From NCBI GenBank assembly GCA_038400315.1, contig CP151667.1, forward strand, positions 3,483,174 to 3,547,173: 64,000 bases of DNA. The letters are read 5' to 3'. Under the pieces are notes generated by a model. That model was not told the origin of the DNA. It did not search any database and worked only from the letters and a program-made list of their open reading frames with translations. The position numbers and the translations under genes are program-made. This document shows, one piece after another, positions 44,109 to 55,732 of the stretch (position 1 is the first letter of the stretch; each line of letters begins with the position of its first letter). The DNA is from Isosphaeraceae bacterium EP7 (GTDB lineage: Bacteria; Planctomycetota; Planctomycetia; Isosphaerales; Isosphaeraceae).

Positions 44109-44534
44109 ATGGGAGACGCTCGTTGGAACTCCGCGGCCCGTTCCGGCCTCCCCTGGATGCTGCTTGGCATGGCGCTCGCCTGGGGGGCCGGCGTAGGCGG
44201 GCCTCCCTCGGTCTCGGCGCAGGGGCCTCTGGGCGTCGATCGCGGTCGGCCGTCGGCCGGCGGCGAGCAGGGATCGCAGGGCTCGGCCTCGGGCACCATC
44301 GCCCTGACGGCCACCCTGGGCAGCGGGGCCCAGTTGCTCTATCTGGTCGACACCAGGCTCCAGTCGCTGGCCATCTACAGGGTGGATCCGACTACCGGCA
44401 ACAACAGCAAGGGGTCGTTGAAGCTGGAGGCGCAGAGGCACTATGGCCAGGATCTGAAGCTGACCGAGTTCAACAACGCACCCCCCGAGGTCCGCTCCAT
44501 CGAAGCCATGGTGCGGACGCTCCCTCCCAAATAA
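44109..44534 (+). CDS. Small exported protein of unknown function
   Basis: The 141-residue product has a signal peptide (WMLLGMALAWGAGVG, cleavage near SVSAQG), a Gly/Ser-rich linker (about 40-60) and a compact C-terminal part with beta strands (ALTATLGSGAQLLYLVDTRL, QSLAIYRVDP) and EAQRHYGQDLKLTEFN. GGAGGTG is 8 nt upstream of ATG 44109. The ending pattern suggests a WD-like single blade or a small beta sandwich. It precedes the HTH-membrane protein gene by 115 bp. No named family is recognised. Confidence 0.8.
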   Translation: MGDARWNSAARSGLPWMLLGMALAWGAGVGGPPSVSAQGPLGVDRGRPSAGGEQGSQGSASGTIALTATLGSGAQLLYLVDTRLQSLAIYRVDPTTGNNSKGSLKLEAQRHYGQDLKLTEFNNAPPEVRSIEAMVRTLPPK

Positions 44535-44649: not shown

Positions 44650-46158
44650 ATGGCGCAGTTCTATACGCTGGAAGAGGCAGCCCGCGTCCTCGGGATGAGC
44701 CCCGAGGAGCTGAAGGTCAAGGCGCAACATCGCGAGGTCCGCGCGTTCATGGACGGCGGGACCTGGCAGTTCCGCGTCGCCGATGTCGACGAGCTGGCAC
44801 GCCGCAGGGGCCTGGGCAGCGACCCCGAGCTGTCCCTGTCCGACCTCGACCTGGACATTCCCGCCGGCTCCGACAGCCACAACCTGGACCTCTCCGAGTT
44901 CCAGCTCGGCGTGGTCAACCCCGACCTGGGGCCCCCCACGGTCAACCTCTCGGCCGACTCCGGCGACGACCTGGACATCCTGCTCGACGAGACGACCCTG
45001 CCCCCCGGCCCCTCCTCGGGCTCCAGCTCGACGATCCTGGGGATGAAGCCCTCGGGCAAGCGCCCCAGCGACTCCGACGTGCGGCTGGTGCCCGACCTGA
45101 CCATGCGCGGGTCGAGCGACTCCGACGTGCGGCTCTCGCCTCAGGCGAAGATGCCCAGCGACTCCGACGTGACGCTCATCAGCGACATCTCGTCGGATGA
45201 CCTGGCCCCGGTCCTCCCCGGCTCGCGGTCGGGCGACACCTCCTTCCAGCCGAGCCCCTCGCTCGGCAGCTCGGACGAGCTCCATGCGATCGAGTCGGAC
45301 AGCGACTTCGAGCTCTCCAGCCCGTCGTCGAACCTGATCGACGCCCTCCAGCCGGAGTCGGGCAGCGACTTCGAGCTGACGGCCCTGGACGCCAGCAGCG
45401 ACGAGTTCGAGGCGACCCCGCTGTCGCCGGCCGACTCCGACGTGACGGCCGCCGAGCCGTCGCTCTCGGGCATCAACCTGGGCCGGCCCAGCGACTCGGG
45501 CATCAACCTGCTCGGCCCCGGCGCCTTCGACCTGAGCCAGGCCGACTCGATCGAGCTGGCCCCGCTCGACGGCGACGAGCCCGCCCCCAAGGCCCCGCCC
45601 AGGCCGGTCACCAGGCCGGCCGCCGCAGCCGCCCCCAAGGCCCCCGACAAGGACATCTTCGAGGACACCGACTTCGAGGTCGACGCCCTCGGCACCGACG
45701 AGTCGGGCGACGACCGGACGGTGCAGCTCGAGGCCGCCAGCGACTTCGAGCTGGAGGATTCCGACAGCGCCTCGGAAGTCTTCGCCATCGACGAGGACGA
45801 CGTCGATCAGAACGCCGCCACCGCCATGGCCCCGGCCTTGCTCGAAGAAGAAGACGATGAGGATGCCTTCGGCGACCTGGGCGGCGCGGCCGCCAGCGGC
45901 GACTCGGCCGGCAGCGGCTGGGACGTGGAGCGCGAGGACGACGCCACCGGCTCACGCGCCGCGCCGGCCGCGATGATGGCCAGCTCCGCGTCGTCGGCCG
46001 AGTGGGGCGGCCTCTGGGTCGGCGTCCTCGGTGCCGCTGCCGTGTTCACGCTGGTGCTCGCCCTCGTCTCGCTCGACCTGGTCCGCAACCTCTACGAGTT
46101 CCGCGGCGACACCCCAGCCTCGGGCCTGATCCGCAGCCTCGCCGGCCTGGTCGGCTGA
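44650..46158 (+). CDS. HTH (excisionase-like) protein with acidic 'SDSDV' repeats and C-terminal membrane anchor
   Basis: The 502-residue product starts with a MerR/excisionase-like HTH (FYTLEEAARVLGMSPEELKV, with FMDGGTWQFRVADVDELARR, residues 4-57). Residues about 58-440 are strongly acidic and low-complexity, with at least eight variants of S-D-S-D-V/F-x-L (PSDSDVRLVPD, SSDSDVRLSPQ, PSDSDVTLISD, ESDSDFELSSP, GSDFELTALD, ASDFELEDSD). Near the C-terminus is a membrane helix (LWVGVLGAAAVFTLVLALVS) and about 30 residues beyond it. The HTH would be cytoplasmic, so this looks like a membrane-tethered DNA-binding protein, or an HTH-type fold used for protein binding. AGGAG precedes ATG 44650. A coiled-coil lipoprotein follows 115 bp later. 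Confidence 0.85.
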   Translation: MAQFYTLEEAARVLGMSPEELKVKAQHREVRAFMDGGTWQFRVADVDELARRRGLGSDPELSLSDLDLDIPAGSDSHNLDLSEFQLGVVNPDLGPPTVNLSADSGDDLDILLDETTLPPGPSSGSSSTILGMKPSGKRPSDSDVRLVPDLTMRGSSDSDVRLSPQAKMPSDSDVTLISDISSDDLAPVLPGSRSGDTSFQPSPSLGSSDELHAIESDSDFELSSPSSNLIDALQPESGSDFELTALDASSDEFEATPLSPADSDVTAAEPSLSGINLGRPSDSGINLLGPGAFDLSQADSIELAPLDGDEPAPKAPPRPVTRPAAAAAPKAPDKDIFEDTDFEVDALGTDESGDDRTVQLEAASDFELEDSDSASEVFAIDEDDVDQNAATAMAPALLEEEDDEDAFGDLGGAAASGDSAGSGWDVEREDDATGSRAAPAAMMASSASSAEWGGLWVGVLGAAAVFTLVLALVSLDLVRNLYEFRGDTPASGLIRSLAGLVG

Positions 46159-46273
46159 CCTTGGCCCGTTCGACCGTTCGATGATCCTCGATGCCGGGCC
46201 GGACGCATCGCCGTCCGGCCCGGTCGCATCCTCCACTCAACGCCGGTCATCGTCCCGAAAGGAGTCGGAACGC

Positions 46274-46663
46274 ATGGGACCCCGCACGATCCCCGGCCCC
46301 TCGCGAATCAGGCCGGCCCTGGCCGTCGCGCTCGCCCTCGTCACTGCGGCGATGCCGGGCTGCGGCATGGTCCCGCGCACCCGCCTGGCCGATTGCGCCA
46401 AGCTGAGCCAGAGCCTCCAGGCCGACAACTCCCAGTTGAAGGACCAGGTCGTCAAGCTGCGCGCCGAGAACCAGGAATTCGCCCAGCGCGCCGTCGACGA
46501 CTCGGGCCAGATCCGCCGCCTCTCCGCCGAGAACAACCGGATGGAGCGCAGCATCGCCGCCTATCAGGATGACCGCGAGCGCCTGAACACCGCCTTCCAG
46601 GACGTGAAGGAAAAGGTCCATCAGGCGGCCCTGCTCGACGACGCGGGGATGGGGCGGAAGTGA
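46274..46663 (+). CDS. Coiled-coil lipoprotein
   Basis: From ATG 46274 (AAGGAG 11 nt upstream) the product has 129 residues. A signal peptide ends in the lipobox TAAMPGC, followed by a long leucine-spaced coiled coil (LSQSLQADNSQLKDQVVKLR, AENQEFAQRAVDDSGQIRRL, SAENNRMERSIAAYQDDRER) reminiscent of Lpp/Pal-type or LapB-like spacers, ending at QAALLDDAG. It probably forms a periplasmic rod tethered to a membrane. It sits directly behind the HTH-membrane protein gene and may be co-transcribed. Confidence 0.88.
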   Translation: MGPRTIPGPSRIRPALAVALALVTAAMPGCGMVPRTRLADCAKLSQSLQADNSQLKDQVVKLRAENQEFAQRAVDDSGQIRRLSAENNRMERSIAAYQDDRERLNTAFQDVKEKVHQAALLDDAGMGRK

Positions 46664-46860
46664 TCGGGACACTGATCCGGTCCGCTGCCATGATAGGCGT
46701 CATGGTCTGATTTGACATCTGTTGATGCGGGTGTAGGTTCTTTCCGGGGCACCCCGGAAAATTGTCCGGGAGATGCCATCGACCCGGGCCGGAGGCTCGG
46801 CGGATCCTCTCCAGTCGGGCTGCCCCGAGGGCTCGCCCGATTTGCTCCCGGGAGGCGAAG

Positions 46861-49131: not shown

Positions 49132-49245
49132 GCCTGCGGGGCTTGACTTGGTTCCTCTGCGGGACCCATAATCCAAGGTGATGCTGGACGGCTGTCTTCC
49201 GTCCCGCTCGACTCTTGGATCTTGCGGCGATGGGGGCCCGGGACG

Positions 49246-49941
49246 ATGACGAGGACTCTGAAGGCGCTTTGCGGCGCCCTGATCCTGGCGGGATCGACCA
49301 GCGCGAATGCGGCCGGCCTGCGAGGCGACTACATCGAAGCACGCACGGCCGACGTCTACACCGGCCCTTGCTTTTCCAATGCTGAAATCTTCATTTACGG
49401 CGATAGCGCCGTGATGGCCTGGAAGGTGACCGAAGGGTCGTTCAACGGCGTGAAGCTCGACGGCCTGGGCATCGCCGCGGCGGTGCGCGGGACGACGACC
49501 TTCTCCGAGGACAAGCCCGAGAAGGCCAAGTCGGTCCTGATCGTCGACCGCAACGCTAACCCCAAGCAGCGCGAGGCCCTCATCGCGATGGCCAAATCGC
49601 TGGCCGGCAAGCGGCTGGACTCGGTCGTCGAGGTCCGGACCTCGCTGATCAGCCTGACCGTCGAGGCCCACGCCTCGGCCGAGCCGACCGCGCACCACGG
49701 CATGCCCCACGCCCCCCTCGGCACATTCTGGGCCCCCGGCCTGGCCGAGATCAGCACCCGCCCGCTGGGCGACGGCGACCACATGTGCGGCAACGAGACG
49801 GTGGCCTACGCCCCGCTCTCGAAGAGCGTCGACGTCCTGCCGGCCTACACGCTGGGCCACCACTTCAAGGCCCCCGGCCTGGGTGGCAACTGGGACGACC
49901 CCAACTGCCGGAGCAGCTTCGTCGGCCACTTCTCGCTCTGA
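49246..49941 (+). CDS. Exported DUF1326 domain-containing protein
   Basis: From ATG 49246 the product has 231 residues with a signal peptide (GALILAGSTSANAAG). The mature part starts LRGDYIEARTADVYTGPCFS, the DUF1326 hallmark, and continues with AVMAWKVTEGSFNGVKLDGL, ERDANPKQR-like VDRNANPKQREALIAMAKSL and a C-terminal NWDDPNCRSSFVGHFSL. Family members have no proven function. ATG 49222 is in frame and equally lacks a strong ribosome site, so the start is uncertain by eight residues. It lies between the beta-helix gene and another exported protein. Confidence 0.88.
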   Translation: MTRTLKALCGALILAGSTSANAAGLRGDYIEARTADVYTGPCFSNAEIFIYGDSAVMAWKVTEGSFNGVKLDGLGIAAAVRGTTTFSEDKPEKAKSVLIVDRNANPKQREALIAMAKSLAGKRLDSVVEVRTSLISLTVEAHASAEPTAHHGMPHAPLGTFWAPGLAEISTRPLGDGDHMCGNETVAYAPLSKSVDVLPAYTLGHHFKAPGLGGNWDDPNCRSSFVGHFSL

Positions 49942-50113
49942 GATCCGGCCGAGTATGACTTGCTGAGATCGATCGTCGGCGCGGGCAGTCCGGGCGGTGA
50001 AACCATCGCCGGGGATGCCCCGTCGGCGCGGGTCTTCTCGCCCTTTTGACGGCCAGACTCTCCCGGCCGGTGTGCCCTCGGACTCTATATCCATCTTGAG
50101 GTTTGCTACTCGC

Positions 50114-50815
50114 ATGCAACGCCCCCGCACCCGGTTGTTGGGACTGGCCCTGGCGATCGCCCTGGCCCCGGCCGTCTCGTTCGCCCAGGAACCCTACAAG
50201 GTCGAGGCTTCGAAGGAGGCCCCGCCCGAGGCCCTGGCGCCGGCCGTCAAGGAGGCCCTCCGGCCCGAGGGGTTCCGGGTGCTCGACGCCCAGGGCAAGC
50301 CGTTCGCCGAGTTCTGGCTGCGCAAGGAAATCCCCGCGTCGGGCAAGCCCGCCGGCACCCAGGGGGCCGTCCAGTTCCCGATCCTGGCCGAAGGCGAGCT
50401 GCTCGGGGCCATCAAGTACTCGGTCGAAGGGGGCGACTATCGCGATCAGCCGATCGCCGCGGGGGTCTACACCCTGCGCTACGGCCTCCAGCCGGTGAAT
50501 GGCGATCACCTGGGCGTCAGCCCGTTCCGCGACTACGCGCTGCTGCTCCCCGCGGCCAAGGACAAAACGGTCGCCCTCCTGCCGCGCAAGGAGCTGGAAA
50601 CCGAGAGCGCCGAGGCCGCCGGCACGAATCACCCGGCCATCCTCTTCCTCCTGACCGCGCCCGCCGGGTCCAAGGCCGAGCCTTCGATCGTCCATGACGA
50701 GGAGAAGAAGACCTGGGGGGCGATCGCTCCGCTCGAACTGGCCGTCAAAGGCGAGGCCACCCCGGTGCCGCTGCCCGTGAAGCTGATCGTCGTGGGCGCG
50801 ACCCAGGGGGGCTGA
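50114..50815 (+). CDS. Exported protein of unknown function
   Basis: From ATG 50114 the product has 233 residues. A signal peptide (LLGLALAIALAPAVSFAQEP) is followed by a beta-rich domain: LDAQGKPFAEFWLRKEIPAS, GAVQFPILAEGELLGAIKYS, QPIAAGVYTLRYGLQPVNGD, PAILFLLTAPAGSKAEPSIV, ending in PLPVKLIVVGATQGG. The YTLRYGLQPVNGDHLG stretch recalls DUF2911-like proteins but I would not assign it. The longest frame starts at 49997, upstream of the signal peptide, and is less likely. Confidence 0.8.
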   Translation: MQRPRTRLLGLALAIALAPAVSFAQEPYKVEASKEAPPEALAPAVKEALRPEGFRVLDAQGKPFAEFWLRKEIPASGKPAGTQGAVQFPILAEGELLGAIKYSVEGGDYRDQPIAAGVYTLRYGLQPVNGDHLGVSPFRDYALLLPAAKDKTVALLPRKELETESAEAAGTNHPAILFLLTAPAGSKAEPSIVHDEEKKTWGAIAPLELAVKGEATPVPLPVKLIVVGATQGG

Positions 50816-50901
50816 GCCCGCGCCGGTTCCATTGCAGGGGGCGACCCGAGGCCGATCACTGGCGACGCTCGATCTCCCCAGGGAGCAGGACGGACCTTCG
50901 C

Positions 50902-52377
50902 ATGCCCTTGCCGCTGCTCGTCGCCGTGGTCGTGGCCTTCGGGCTGGATACGCCCGGCGACCTCGATTTGCTCGCCCCCGCCGAAGTCCTCAGGCGCCTG
51001 CTGGAGACGCTCGGCGGGGTTGTCGTCGTGGCGGTCACGGCCGGGGTTCTCGGCCTGGTCCTGGCCTCGGCGGCGCGCCGGGAGGGCGGGCCCACCGTGC
51101 GGCTCAGGCGGACCTATCTGCTGGGTTCCCGGGCCTGTGAGGTGCTGGCGTTGGGCACCTTCGCCTGGATCATCCACTCCGTCGGCTGGCGGCAGGTGGT
51201 GCGGTCGGGCTTCAACCTGCGCGGGGCGATCCTGGCCGACGAGGTCCTGATCCTGGCGCCGTTCCTGCTGTCGCAGCTCGCCGTCTGGGCGGGCCTGTAC
51301 CCGGCCGAGCGTGCCCTGCGGTCGCGGGCTGTCCCGTCGGCCGGGGGGGTCTTCGGCCACGTCGCGCGGCGGGCCAGGCAGACGATGGGCCTGATCCTGC
51401 CGGTGGTCCTGATCTTTGCCCTGGGTCAGGACCTGGTCGGCCGATTCCTCCCCTCGGCCTCGGGCGACGCCTGGGTCCAGGTCGGCGTGATGGCGGCAAT
51501 GGGGGCCCTGGTGCTCGTCTTCTCGCCCGCGTTCGTCCGCATGGCCTGGCCGACGCGCCGGCTCGAAGACGGCCCGCTGCGCGACCGGCTGGAACGCCTG
51601 GCGGCGCGGCACCGGTTCCGCTGCACCGACATCCTGGTCTGGGAGACCGGCGGCACCGCGGTCAACGCAGGCGTCACGGGCGCGCTCCCCTGGTTCCGCT
51701 ATGTTTTGCTGACCGACGCCCTGATCGAGCGGCTCGACGCGCGGCAGGTGGCGGCGGTCTTCGGCCACGAGGTCGGGCACATCGCGCACCGGCACCTGCT
51801 CTCGTTCGGACTCTTCTTCCTGGGAAGTCTGGGTATCCTGGCCCTGATGGGGCAGGGGATTGAGGCGTACGTCACCCTGCCCGCGGGGGTTGATACCGAG
51901 GATCTGGCGGCGACCACCGTGCTGCAATCGGCCGTCTTCCTGGGGCTGGTCGTGGCCTACTTCCTGGGCGTCTTCGGCCTGCTCTCGAGGCGGTTCGAGC
52001 GTCAGGCCGACGTCTACGGCTGCCGCGCGGTCTCGTGCGACGTGGACGGCTGCCCGCCGCACATCGACGTGGACGGCAAGCCGGGCGCGGCGTTGACGGG
52101 CCCCGCCCCCGGGCTCTGCATCCTGGGCATCCGGATCTTCGCCGAGGCTCTGGCCGACGTGGCGCGGCTCAACGGCATCGACCGCGACGTAAGGTCGTGG
52201 CGGCACGGAAGTATCGGCCGGCGGATCGCGTTCGTCGAGGGCCTCGCCGGCCGCCCCGAGGCCGAGCGCCGGTTCCAGGCCGGCACCGTCCGCCTGCGGC
52301 TCGGCCTGCTGGTCCTGCTCGCCGGATCGGTGGCCCTGGCGGTGGCGGCCGGATCGGTCGAATACCTCGGCCGCTGA
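50902..52377 (+). CDS. M48 family integral membrane metalloprotease (Ste24/HtpX-like)
   Basis: The 491-residue product has four or five N-terminal membrane helices (about 5-25, 38-58, 75-95, 105-130, 160-180), a zinc protease core, and further helices around 300-320, 340-362 and 465-485. The active site is FGHEVGHIAHRH (His289, Glu290, His293), with the third zinc ligand Glu366 in RRFERQADVYG, as in Ste24 and HtpX. After this, a short Cys-containing stretch (CRAVSCDVDGCPP) is unusual. In Bacteria such proteases remove misfolded membrane proteins. The histidine kinase/NtrC pair starts 186 bp downstream. Confidence 0.93.
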   Translation: MPLPLLVAVVVAFGLDTPGDLDLLAPAEVLRRLLETLGGVVVVAVTAGVLGLVLASAARREGGPTVRLRRTYLLGSRACEVLALGTFAWIIHSVGWRQVVRSGFNLRGAILADEVLILAPFLLSQLAVWAGLYPAERALRSRAVPSAGGVFGHVARRARQTMGLILPVVLIFALGQDLVGRFLPSASGDAWVQVGVMAAMGALVLVFSPAFVRMAWPTRRLEDGPLRDRLERLAARHRFRCTDILVWETGGTAVNAGVTGALPWFRYVLLTDALIERLDARQVAAVFGHEVGHIAHRHLLSFGLFFLGSLGILALMGQGIEAYVTLPAGVDTEDLAATTVLQSAVFLGLVVAYFLGVFGLLSRRFERQADVYGCRAVSCDVDGCPPHIDVDGKPGAALTGPAPGLCILGIRIFAEALADVARLNGIDRDVRSWRHGSIGRRIAFVEGLAGRPEAERRFQAGTVRLRLGLLVLLAGSVALAVAAGSVEYLGR

Positions 52378-52563
52378 CGGGCCTGTCGGTCGGCGTGGGG
52401 GCTCGACTGGAGGAAAACCGGGCCGAGGTCGCCTTTGATCCCGGGCGGACCTCTGCTAGAGTGCCGCCCCTGGACGCAGAACGGCCGGCGGGCCGGGCTT
52501 CATTGAGGAGGCCCGAAGCACGCCAACGCCCGCGTCCGACCCACGCGACATGGAGGTCGCCCC

Positions 52564-54183
52564 ATGGTCCAGTGGCCGATTCGGATCAAGCTGATAGCCG
52601 GACTCGTCCTGGTCGTCGGCATGATGCTGACCCTGATGGGTGGCTCGCTGTTCGGGCTCCACGCCTTCCACAGCAGCAACCTCACCGTCGTCGACCTGCT
52701 GCCCGAGCTGGGCGCGTCGAAGGACCTGATCCGCTACGTGGTCCGGCTCGACGGCCACCGACTCAAGGCACGCGGCGACCTGAAAGCCCTCGACGAGGCC
52801 GTGCGCGACACGCAGCAGGCCCTGGTGCGTTACTTCGAGGTCTTGAAGAAGAACGCGACCCGCGGCAACCGGGCCGACGATGGCCTGGACGAGCGCAAGC
52901 TCGCCTTCCTGATGGACGAGGACCTGCGGGCGATCCTGGTCGCGCTGCACCCGGACGAGCCGGCCGAGCCGATTCTCAAGGGGACCGCGTCCTTCCTGGC
53001 CGAGAACCCGACGATGGCCGTCCCGGCCGCCGAGCGAGGCGCGGGCGATGGTGAGGTCCTAGCGCGGGTCGACCGGCTCAACGAGTCGGTCATGCAGCTG
53101 CCCGACTTCCTGCATCAGGACCTGTTCACGGTCCTCGGCCTGTCGAAGCGCTATTACGAGTCGAGCCGCGTGATCGTCTGGGCCTCGTTCGTGATGGTCA
53201 CGGCCATGCTGACGGCGCTGGCGGCTCTGTTGCATCGCTGGGTGCTCTACCCGGTGCGGCTGCTTCAGCGCGGGGTGCGTCGCGTGGCACGCGGTTCCTT
53301 CGACTATACGATCGACCTGCGCACGGGCGACGAGATGCAGGCGCTGGCCGAGGCCTTCAACGACATGACCGCGCGATTGCGCGTGACGTATGAAGACCTG
53401 GAACGCCAGGTGCACGAGCGTAGCCGCCAGCTCGTCCGGTCGGAGCGCCTCGCCGGCGTCGGCTTCCTGGCCGCGGGCGTGGCGCACGAGATCAACAACC
53501 CGCTGGCCTCGATCGCCTTCTGCTCCGAGGCCCTGGAGAGCCGCCTGACCCCGATCCTGGGCCGCGAGGCCGACCTGGCCGACGCCAAGGTGGTGCGCAA
53601 CTACCTGCGGATGATCCAGGAGGAGGCGTTCCGCTGCAAATCGATCACCGAGAAGCTGCTCGACTTCTCCCGCTGCGGCGAGATCCAGCGCCAGCGCACC
53701 GACCTGGTCGGCCTGGTGCAGGGGGTCGTCGAGATGATCCGCCACATGGGCAAGTATCGCGACAAGCAGGTGGCCTTCACCCCCCGCGAGGCCGTTGTGG
53801 CGCACGCCGACGCCCAGGAGATCAAGCAGGTGGTGCTCAATCTCGTGGTCAACGCGCTCGACTCGATGGAGGACGGCGGCACCCTGAAGATCGACCTCAG
53901 GCGTTCCGAGGGGATGGCCGAGATGTCGTTCAACGACGACGGCTGCGGCATGCCGCCCGAGGTGCTCGAGAACATCTTCGAGCCCTTCTTCACCCGCAGG
54001 CGGGTGGGCAAGGGGACCGGCCTCGGCCTGTCGATCACGCATCGGATCGTCAGCCAGCACCACGGCGAGATCCACGCCACCAGCCCCGGCGAAGGCCGAG
54101 GCTCGACCTTCACCGTCCGGCTGCCGACCCGCCCCGAGGACGCCGCCCCGGCCGAACCCTCGCAGGGCCAGCGCGCCGCCTGA
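52564..54183 (+). CDS. HAMP-containing sensor histidine kinase (NtrB-like class)
   Basis: The 539-residue product has a periplasmic sensor loop of about 170 residues between membrane helices at 9-31 and 204-225, a HAMP domain (RWVLYPVRLLQRGVRRVARG), a HisKA domain with phospho-acceptor His308 in GVAHEINNPLAS, and a HATPase domain with N box NLVVNALDSM, G1 DDGCGM, F box FEPFF and G2 GKGTGLGLSI. The kinase domain is of the kind that pairs with NtrC regulators. GGAGG precedes ATG 52564. The NtrC-type gene follows 142 bp later, and together they form a two-component system. The sensed signal is unknown. Confidence 0.96.
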   Translation: MVQWPIRIKLIAGLVLVVGMMLTLMGGSLFGLHAFHSSNLTVVDLLPELGASKDLIRYVVRLDGHRLKARGDLKALDEAVRDTQQALVRYFEVLKKNATRGNRADDGLDERKLAFLMDEDLRAILVALHPDEPAEPILKGTASFLAENPTMAVPAAERGAGDGEVLARVDRLNESVMQLPDFLHQDLFTVLGLSKRYYESSRVIVWASFVMVTAMLTALAALLHRWVLYPVRLLQRGVRRVARGSFDYTIDLRTGDEMQALAEAFNDMTARLRVTYEDLERQVHERSRQLVRSERLAGVGFLAAGVAHEINNPLASIAFCSEALESRLTPILGREADLADAKVVRNYLRMIQEEAFRCKSITEKLLDFSRCGEIQRQRTDLVGLVQGVVEMIRHMGKYRDKQVAFTPREAVVAHADAQEIKQVVLNLVVNALDSMEDGGTLKIDLRRSEGMAEMSFNDDGCGMPPEVLENIFEPFFTRRRVGKGTGLGLSITHRIVSQHHGEIHATSPGEGRGSTFTVRLPTRPEDAAPAEPSQGQRAA

Positions 54184-54325
54184 GTCGGCCAGATCCGCTT
54201 CAAGTCCGGGAAGTCCGATCGAACGGTCGGTCCCGACGCGACGTACCAACACACAGCTCCAGGGGCCTTCGGGGCCCGACAAGACACGCAGACGCCTCGC
54301 TTCGTCTCATGGAGGAGACCTTCCG

Positions 54326-55732
<1,407 letters not shown>

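Follow-up and report, generated by a model that had tools for sequence, protein, structure and literature searches.

The gene at positions 44650..46158 on the + strand of the window, i.e. of the whole 64,000-nucleotide stretch of Isosphaeraceae bacterium EP7 DNA that was analysed, encodes a protein with an N-terminal helix-turn-helix (HTH) domain, a long acidic tail and a C-terminal membrane helix. Judged by conserved gene order, this HTH protein, the gene directly upstream and a downstream lipoprotein gene form a deep, ancient three-gene module. The architecture of the protein, together with a conserved gene group that includes a cell-wall-type lipoprotein, suggests an uncharacterised cell-envelope scaffold.

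Architecture of the HTH protein

The HTH protein consists of the following parts:
44650..46158, + strand: whole protein, made up of HTH, disordered acidic region and membrane helix (ORF, 502 aa)
44650..44811, + strand: winged HTH (wHTH) domain of the MerR/BldC type, residues 1-54 (HTH_17, AlphaFold2 and fold match)
44821..45993, + strand: acidic, mostly disordered region, residues 58-448 (pLDDT and composition)
46009..46098, + strand: membrane helix, residues 454-483 (AlphaFold2 and hydropathy)
46126..46149, + strand: short C-terminal helix, residues 493-500 (AlphaFold2, moderate confidence)

An earlier sequence-only reading had placed the protein and its lipoprotein partner at 44650-46663 and described an N-terminal HTH, an acidic disordered stretch and a C-terminal helix; ORF analysis, the HTH_17 match and the AlphaFold2 model agree with it on all of these. 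In the protein scan, Pfam HTH_17 matched residues 4-53 with an E-value of 1.8e-5 and 25.4 bits, slightly below the cut-off of 27 bits, and in the genome scan the stretch of the HTH gene scored 30.1 bits, which is above the cut-off. The same family was matched at E 0.01 by 32/35 homologues. AlphaFold2 modelled residues 1-50 with a mean pLDDT above 90 and most of residues 65-445 with a pLDDT below 50. No helix was predicted between the wHTH and residue 454 except for the three residues 63-65, and the helix at 454-483 is followed by approximately 20 residues up to the C-terminus. The tail is composed of 22% D+E, 4% K+R and 20% S+T. Tethering of the protein to the membrane, as the earlier reading had proposed, is supported by the predicted helix and by its hydropathy over 19 residues, which was 2.51 in the window and at least 1.98 in 35/35 homologues. 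The genome contains one copy of the protein, and the recurrence of SDSDV with the same N-terminal HTH elsewhere in the proteome, a check put forward by that reading, gave no further case.

Distribution in planctomycetes

By a BLAST-level search the HTH protein was matched in 35/40 genomes, its own included. At each of the 34 other matches, which make up our class loci, the ORF is complete and has the architecture described above, with lengths of 380-600 aa. A profile built from the class homologues found a match in 267/297 class genomes at E 0.001. In a phylum sample the same profile matched 240/392 genomes at E 1e-6, many of the matches from outside the class being restricted to the N-terminus. 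From the top of these phylum matches 20 loci were picked by hand, two of which (L094 and L095) belong to the class of the window. An HTH followed by more acidic than basic residues was present in 20/20 of them and a hydrophobic segment towards the C-terminus in 19/20. The remaining locus, L093 (G477), encodes an HTH homologue of 174 aa that has a long GMSGMS low-complexity end in place of a membrane segment and is either a variant or an assembly error. A contig search with the Isosphaeraceae alignment, which finds close relatives only, yielded 40 loci, mostly titled as planctomycetes, with four titled Candidatus Kuenenia and one plain 'bacterium'; named relatives were Singulisphaera, Paludisphaera, Aquisphaera, Tautonia and planctomycete metagenome assemblies.

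A weak match to the profile TIGR01764, below its cut-off, and Xis folds among the structural matches would fit an excisionase-type protein of a mobile element. This explanation has next to no chance of being right, given the syntenic, single-copy distribution of the gene. A tblastn search with the HTH protein gave no match in 50,697 phage or 72,556 plasmid records, and an origin from a mobile element was rejected on this result and as contradicted by the distribution.

Linkage of the HTH gene to two neighbouring genes

The two partners in the window are:
44109..44534, + strand: upstream module gene, 141 aa (a later start is possible), ending 115 bp before the HTH gene
46274..46663, + strand: coiled-coil lipoprotein with the lipobox TAAMPGC (by eye), without OmpA domain (ORF, likely start 46274)

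The lipoprotein gene had correctly been placed 115 bp behind the HTH gene and paired with it. This pairing is borne out as part of an ancient linkage, which also includes the upstream gene, absent from the earlier reading. Profiles of both neighbours (the upstream ORF and the lipoprotein) were run over 55 loci, comprising the window, the 34 class loci and the 20 phylum loci. The upstream gene was found at 34/55 loci, each time directly upstream of the HTH gene. The lipoprotein profile likewise matched at 34/55 loci, in 32 of which, the window counted, the gene lies shortly downstream of the HTH gene; among these 32, one other ORF separates the two genes at L065. At L059 and L060 the lipoprotein gene is located about 6.5 kb from the HTH gene, and at the fetched loci of the class families f2 and f3 it is not adjacent to it.

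Across the class, the upstream gene was matched in 126/297 genomes with one match each, with none in families f2, f6 and f8 and a single one in f3. In 54/54 genomes for which both positions were among the matches listed, it adjoins the HTH gene with a median gap of 119 bp. Nineteen class genomes had a match for the upstream gene but none for the HTH profile (13 were scored negative by the profile and 6 were absent from the positives among the matches listed). We used them as a blind test, and an HTH gene was found directly downstream in 19/19. These next genes encode HTH, acidic region and membrane helix, with HTH-profile E-values of 1.9e-12 or better and 19-28% D+E. A twentieth fetched region, from G163, was already HTH-positive and is not included in the 19. 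Together with the 267 profile matches, these 19 genomes bring the HTH gene to at least 286/297 class genomes.

For the upstream protein, AlphaFold2 predicted an N-terminal membrane or signal helix (residues 7-27), a linker, a four-stranded beta-sheet and two helices, with a mean pLDDT of 75. Comparison with solved folds in the PDB gave nothing at E <0.4. The protein, whose gene occurs as a single copy in its own genome, is probably a small, membrane-anchored protein of the periplasm.

The window lipoprotein showed weak matches to coiled-coil families and no OmpA domain by Pfam; the single OmpA match of the whole genome is located elsewhere. Among 16 module lipoproteins tested, other classes included, 13 (3/6 and 10/10 in two sets) carried an OmpA domain above the Pfam cut-off. 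By this domain assignment, the module lipoprotein in relatives is of the OmpA type, the peptidoglycan-binding class. Within Isosphaeraceae, represented by the window and L038-L057, the lipoproteins of the window, L050, L054 and L055 are without Pfam-detectable OmpA and others keep the domain, which suggests that it was lost, or diverged, more than once. At L084, L087 and L091, two OmpA-type lipoprotein genes follow the HTH gene in tandem.

A scan for promoters and terminators on the + strand between the three module genes found nothing. Behind the lipoprotein gene a terminator-like site was seen at 46715-46734, which is within chance expectation. Further downstream, at 49222-55732, the window encodes a DUF1326 protein, an M48-like peptidase, a HAMP histidine kinase and an NtrC-type regulator; the stretch up to the M48-like peptidase has relatives in up to 14/34 class loci.

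Motifs in the acidic tail

Three groups of motifs were localized in the tail:
45067..45177, + strand: three clustered SDSDVxL motifs, residues 140, 156 and 170 (shuffle test, Isosphaeraceae comparison)
45295..45381, + strand: SDSDFEL (residue 216) and GSDFEL (residue 238) motifs (motif count)
45466..45510, + strand: SGINLxRPSDSGINL core, residues 273-287 (alignment of 35 class homologues)

Motif counts in the window tail were compared with those in 1000 composition shuffles of the same tail. SDSDVxL was found three times (shuffle mean 0.002), SDSDV three times (0.012), the loose pattern [SGET]D[SF][DEG][VIFL] nine times (0.23) and SG[IV]x[LI] twice (0.009). For all four patterns, 0/1000 shuffles equalled these counts. 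The 'eight or more' variants counted by the sequence-only reading are thus reached with the loose pattern, but the strict SDSDVxL form occurs only three times, plus one SDSDFEL. On the whole genome, the DNA pattern for SDSDVxL gave seven matches, three of them inside the HTH gene. The remaining four either translate to SDCDV or SDWDV or fall on the first codons of a stop-to-stop frame 90 codons long, and the reversed control pattern had 0 matches genome-wide.

SGINLxRPSDSGINL is the most conserved stretch of the tail, with columns that are invariant or nearly so among 35 class homologues; SG[IV]x[LI] is present in 35/35 of these and the SDSDV string in 30/35. In 17 Isosphaeraceae, residues G238, S239, D240, F241, E242 and L243 are invariant. 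Loss of motif number or spacing, which would have spoken against the motifs, was not observed within this family, where 16/17 members (window included) have retained three sites of the SDSDV type, separated by 10-18 and 14-19 residues. Mean tail identity in the 17 proteins was 91% for 104 motif columns versus 59% for 274 linker columns, a contrast that is partly circular because the motif ranges were drawn after viewing the alignment, whereas the shuffle test is not.

More distant homologues gave a different picture. The loose SDSDV form was found in 2/20 members of a second class set (L159-L178) and in 0/20 homologues mainly of other classes, and SG[IVL]x[LI] in 20/20 and 4/20, respectively. 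The rarity or absence of SDSDV in these two sets indicates that the exact motif is a lineage-limited feature. From these comparisons, the acidic tail is general and the exact SDSDV motif is limited to some lineages; a phylum-wide role of SDSDV was ruled out by its absence from 20/20 distant homologues. The proposal that the repeats are short linear motifs stands in so far as they are under selection, but not as a general docking code. In a distant branch (L079, L080, L082, L085, L086, L088, L089, L090 and L092), whose members we take to be Phycisphaerae-like, GSGSGLLDLT-x-E-x-DDTSLGA replaces SDSDV and SGINL by eye, and neither module neighbour was matched.

The tail might also be a generic acidic low-complexity spacer, its motifs and gene linkage being without specific function. 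The variation of the exact motif beyond Isosphaeraceae and a few families and the differing protein lengths agree with such a spacer. We consider it highly improbable, since the window counts exceed all 1000 shuffles, motif positions are invariant in the 17 Isosphaeraceae, SG[IV]x[LI] is kept in every class homologue aligned and the blind synteny test succeeded throughout.

Evidence for and against DNA binding by the HTH domain

The closest folds to the HTH are those of the DNA binders BldC, RacA and MerR. BldC was matched with a Z-score of 7.4 (6amk_B, rmsd 1.1 over 50 residues) and 7.8 (6ama_B, rmsd 2.1 over 54 residues) and CbpM with 5.9 (3ucs_B, rmsd 5.1 over 61 residues), and MerR proteins, RacA, the pSK1 Par DNA-binding domain and Xis were further matches. 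Z-scores below 8 are not strong alone; the HTH_17 sequence match is concordant. The best PDB sequence match to HTH residues 5-37 was the 'CAP REPEAT' chain 8vd6 with five near-identical helical hairpins (E 4e-12 over the repeats), presumably a designed protein.

BldC contacts DNA through Lys26, Thr27, Thr29, Arg30, Trp31 and Lys33 and, in the wing, through His46, Arg47 and Arg48 (PMC5859096, in excerpt). By structural offset (7 in the helices and 8 in the wing, our own mapping) these residues correspond to positions 19, 20, 22, 23, 24, 26, 38, 39 and 40 of the HTH protein, for which 75 homologues were compared. Position 19 (BldC Lys26) is D or E in 69/75, Thr is not among the seven commonest residues at position 20 (Thr27), and R or K occurs at position 23 (Arg30) in 17/75. 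In the wing, position 39 (Arg47) is Trp in 49/75 and position 40 (Arg48) is R or K in 54/75. Further positions with K or R were 22 (43 homologues), 31 (54), 34 (46) and 42 (67). The mean net charge of the domain was -0.95 (range -5 to +4, n=75), compared with +5 to +9 for five further HTH_17 domains encoded in the window's genome, which are assumed to bind DNA.

The lack of most contact residues and a domain that is uncharged on average argue against ordinary sequence-specific DNA binding. Basic residues at positions 22, 31, 34, 40 and 42 may still allow weak or backbone binding. The absence of DNA-contact residues, named beforehand as evidence against a membrane-fixed DNA binder, was accordingly observed for most of the BldC-equivalent contacts, position 19 above all, but some basic residues are kept. 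The negative mean charge and the acidic position 19, set against the +5 to +9 of the other HTH_17 domains, favour an HTH that would dock to protein.

The strongest rival is a chromosome-to-membrane tether similar to RocS or RacA, in which the wHTH would bind DNA weakly or along the nucleoid, and tail and helix would link the nucleoid to the envelope. In its favour are the fold matches to RacA, the pSK1 Par domain and BldC, the remaining basic wing residues, and a gene that occurs once in its own genome and in nearly every genome of the class. RocS, likewise built in this order from a MerR-type wHTH, a middle region and a membrane anchor at the C-terminus, is controlled through Ser/Thr phosphorylation (PMC11500499, in excerpt). 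We nevertheless regard a tether as rather unlikely. The domain is neutral to acidic, with an acidic position 19, a strongly acidic tail would lie next to DNA, and the linked genes point outward, towards the cell wall. Moreover, the middle of RocS is, in the part of the source available, a coiled coil with DUF536, whereas here it is disordered, and no DUF536 match was found in a Pfam scan of 35 members.

A transmembrane transcription regulator of the one-component type (like ToxR or CadC), with the upstream protein or the lipoprotein as associated periplasmic protein, appears quite improbable. Regulators that combine an HTH with a single membrane helix are widespread, some with a partner protein (PMC10269533, in excerpt). 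The HTH protein, however, has no outside sensor domain, lacks most DNA-contact residues and places approximately 390 acidic residues between HTH and membrane.

Comparison with known systems

The sequence-only reading called a membrane-fixed HTH protein an unusual design. This was overstated, since RodZ, RocS and transmembrane transcription regulators are already known. The HTH of RodZ binds MreB and not DNA (PMC6946637, in excerpt). With RodZ the HTH protein shares an N-terminal HTH, presumably in the cytoplasm, one membrane helix and a presumed site of action near the cell wall. RodZ, however, has an XRE-type HTH, a short basic linker and a sizeable outside part, the last being absent here, where a MerR-type wHTH is followed by the acidic region and the short C-terminal end. 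HTH_17 was the sole HTH family to which more than one of the homologues gave a match, and no RodZ-type HTH model was among the matches listed.

RocS of Streptococcus pneumoniae and RacA of Bacillus subtilis also begin with a MerR-type wHTH, which in RocS is combined with an anchor in the membrane at the C-terminus and with phosphorylation on Ser/Thr (PMC11500499, in excerpt). They differ in a coiled-coil middle, an amphipathic-helix anchor and proven DNA binding, whereas the HTH protein has a disordered acidic middle, poor DNA-contact residues and a helix of the transmembrane type, found in 35/35 homologues.

CbpM has a MerR fold without DNA-binding residues and binds a J-domain (PMC4063869, in excerpt). 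CbpM and DafA, both of the MerR fold and both acting on co-chaperones, resemble the HTH protein in a wHTH that is poor in DNA-binding residues, and CbpM also in the protein partner proposed here. Yet they are small dimers with a coiled-coil helix and have neither membrane anchor nor acidic tail; a long coiled-coil helix after the wHTH is absent from the HTH protein. ToxR and CadC share the membrane-fixed HTH and, in some cases, a partner protein nearby (PMC10269533, in excerpt), but they bind DNA and answer outside signals, neither of which is indicated for the HTH protein. The module lipoproteins resemble Pal and other OmpA-domain lipoproteins in lipobox, coiled coil and, in 13/16, the C-terminal OmpA domain. 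They differ in that the window copy is without OmpA and in that the genetic partner is the HTH protein.

Proposed function of the module

Taken together, we prefer an inner-membrane scaffold that binds protein, on the model of RodZ or CbpM, to a DNA binder. More specifically, the HTH protein would contribute the cytoplasmic and inner-membrane portion of a cell-envelope module in planctomycetes, as a scaffold with a protein-binding wHTH, a docking tail and coupling to the cell wall; for this full reading we hold the chances to be evenly balanced. The protein would sit in the inner membrane by its helix, its HTH and tail facing the cytoplasm and its C-terminus the outside. Its wHTH may have been recruited as a protein-docking head, and the D/S-rich motifs with the alternating hydrophobic residues behind them could form a multivalent set of docking sites to which one or more cytosolic partners bind, and phosphorylation of the motif Ser residues might adjust this binding. 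Membrane helix, upstream protein and lipoprotein would then couple this platform to peptidoglycan and outer membrane. Such a protein might resemble RodZ in its cytosolic action and Pal in what it does towards the outside, while belonging to neither family.

The assumed topology agrees with the lack of a signal peptide (by eye). Membrane proteins are oriented on the basis of the positive-inside rule, and by this rule the lysine-rich C-termini that follow the hydrophobic segments in L078, L081, L096 and L097 fit a cytoplasmic N-terminus. Against this orientation stand the Arg residues that the Isosphaeraceae proteins have next to the helix, on its presumed outer side. Counting against the scaffold are also the DNA binders among the closest folds, the residual basic residues, a motif that is not phylum-wide, the incomplete linkage of the module and the window lipoprotein without OmpA.

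The design has precedents in RodZ, RocS, CbpM and transmembrane regulators. Neither the HTH family nor the three-gene module was found in the PMC literature, a search with supplementary tables and most subscription journals outside its scope. A PMC search for SDSDV gave no planctomycete paper by title among the matches listed, and longer motif strings gave none. The HTH protein was not found by term in the accessible main texts of the Planctopirus limnophila essential-gene paper (PMC10632474) and the T. immobilis proteome paper.

Cell division and envelope assembly follow unusual routes in planctomycetes, which possess many essential phylum-specific genes of unknown function (PMC10632474, in excerpt). 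A near-universal module with a clear architecture provides a tractable entry to this biology, its three genes lying side by side, its membrane protein being accessible to tagging and its defined motifs to mutation. The HTH protein also adds a case to the question of how HTH folds shift from DNA to protein binding. As a more far-reaching and still doubtful idea, the module may constitute a trans-envelope organiser of the Planctomycetota's own. Here a single-copy inner-membrane hub, with a head of the DNA-binding type turned to protein docking and a multivalent, possibly phospho-regulated acidic tail, would be connected to the cell wall by way of the small periplasmic protein and the OmpA lipoprotein. 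If true, this organiser could assume spatial tasks that are carried out elsewhere by RodZ/MreB, Tol-Pal or FtsZ-linked systems.
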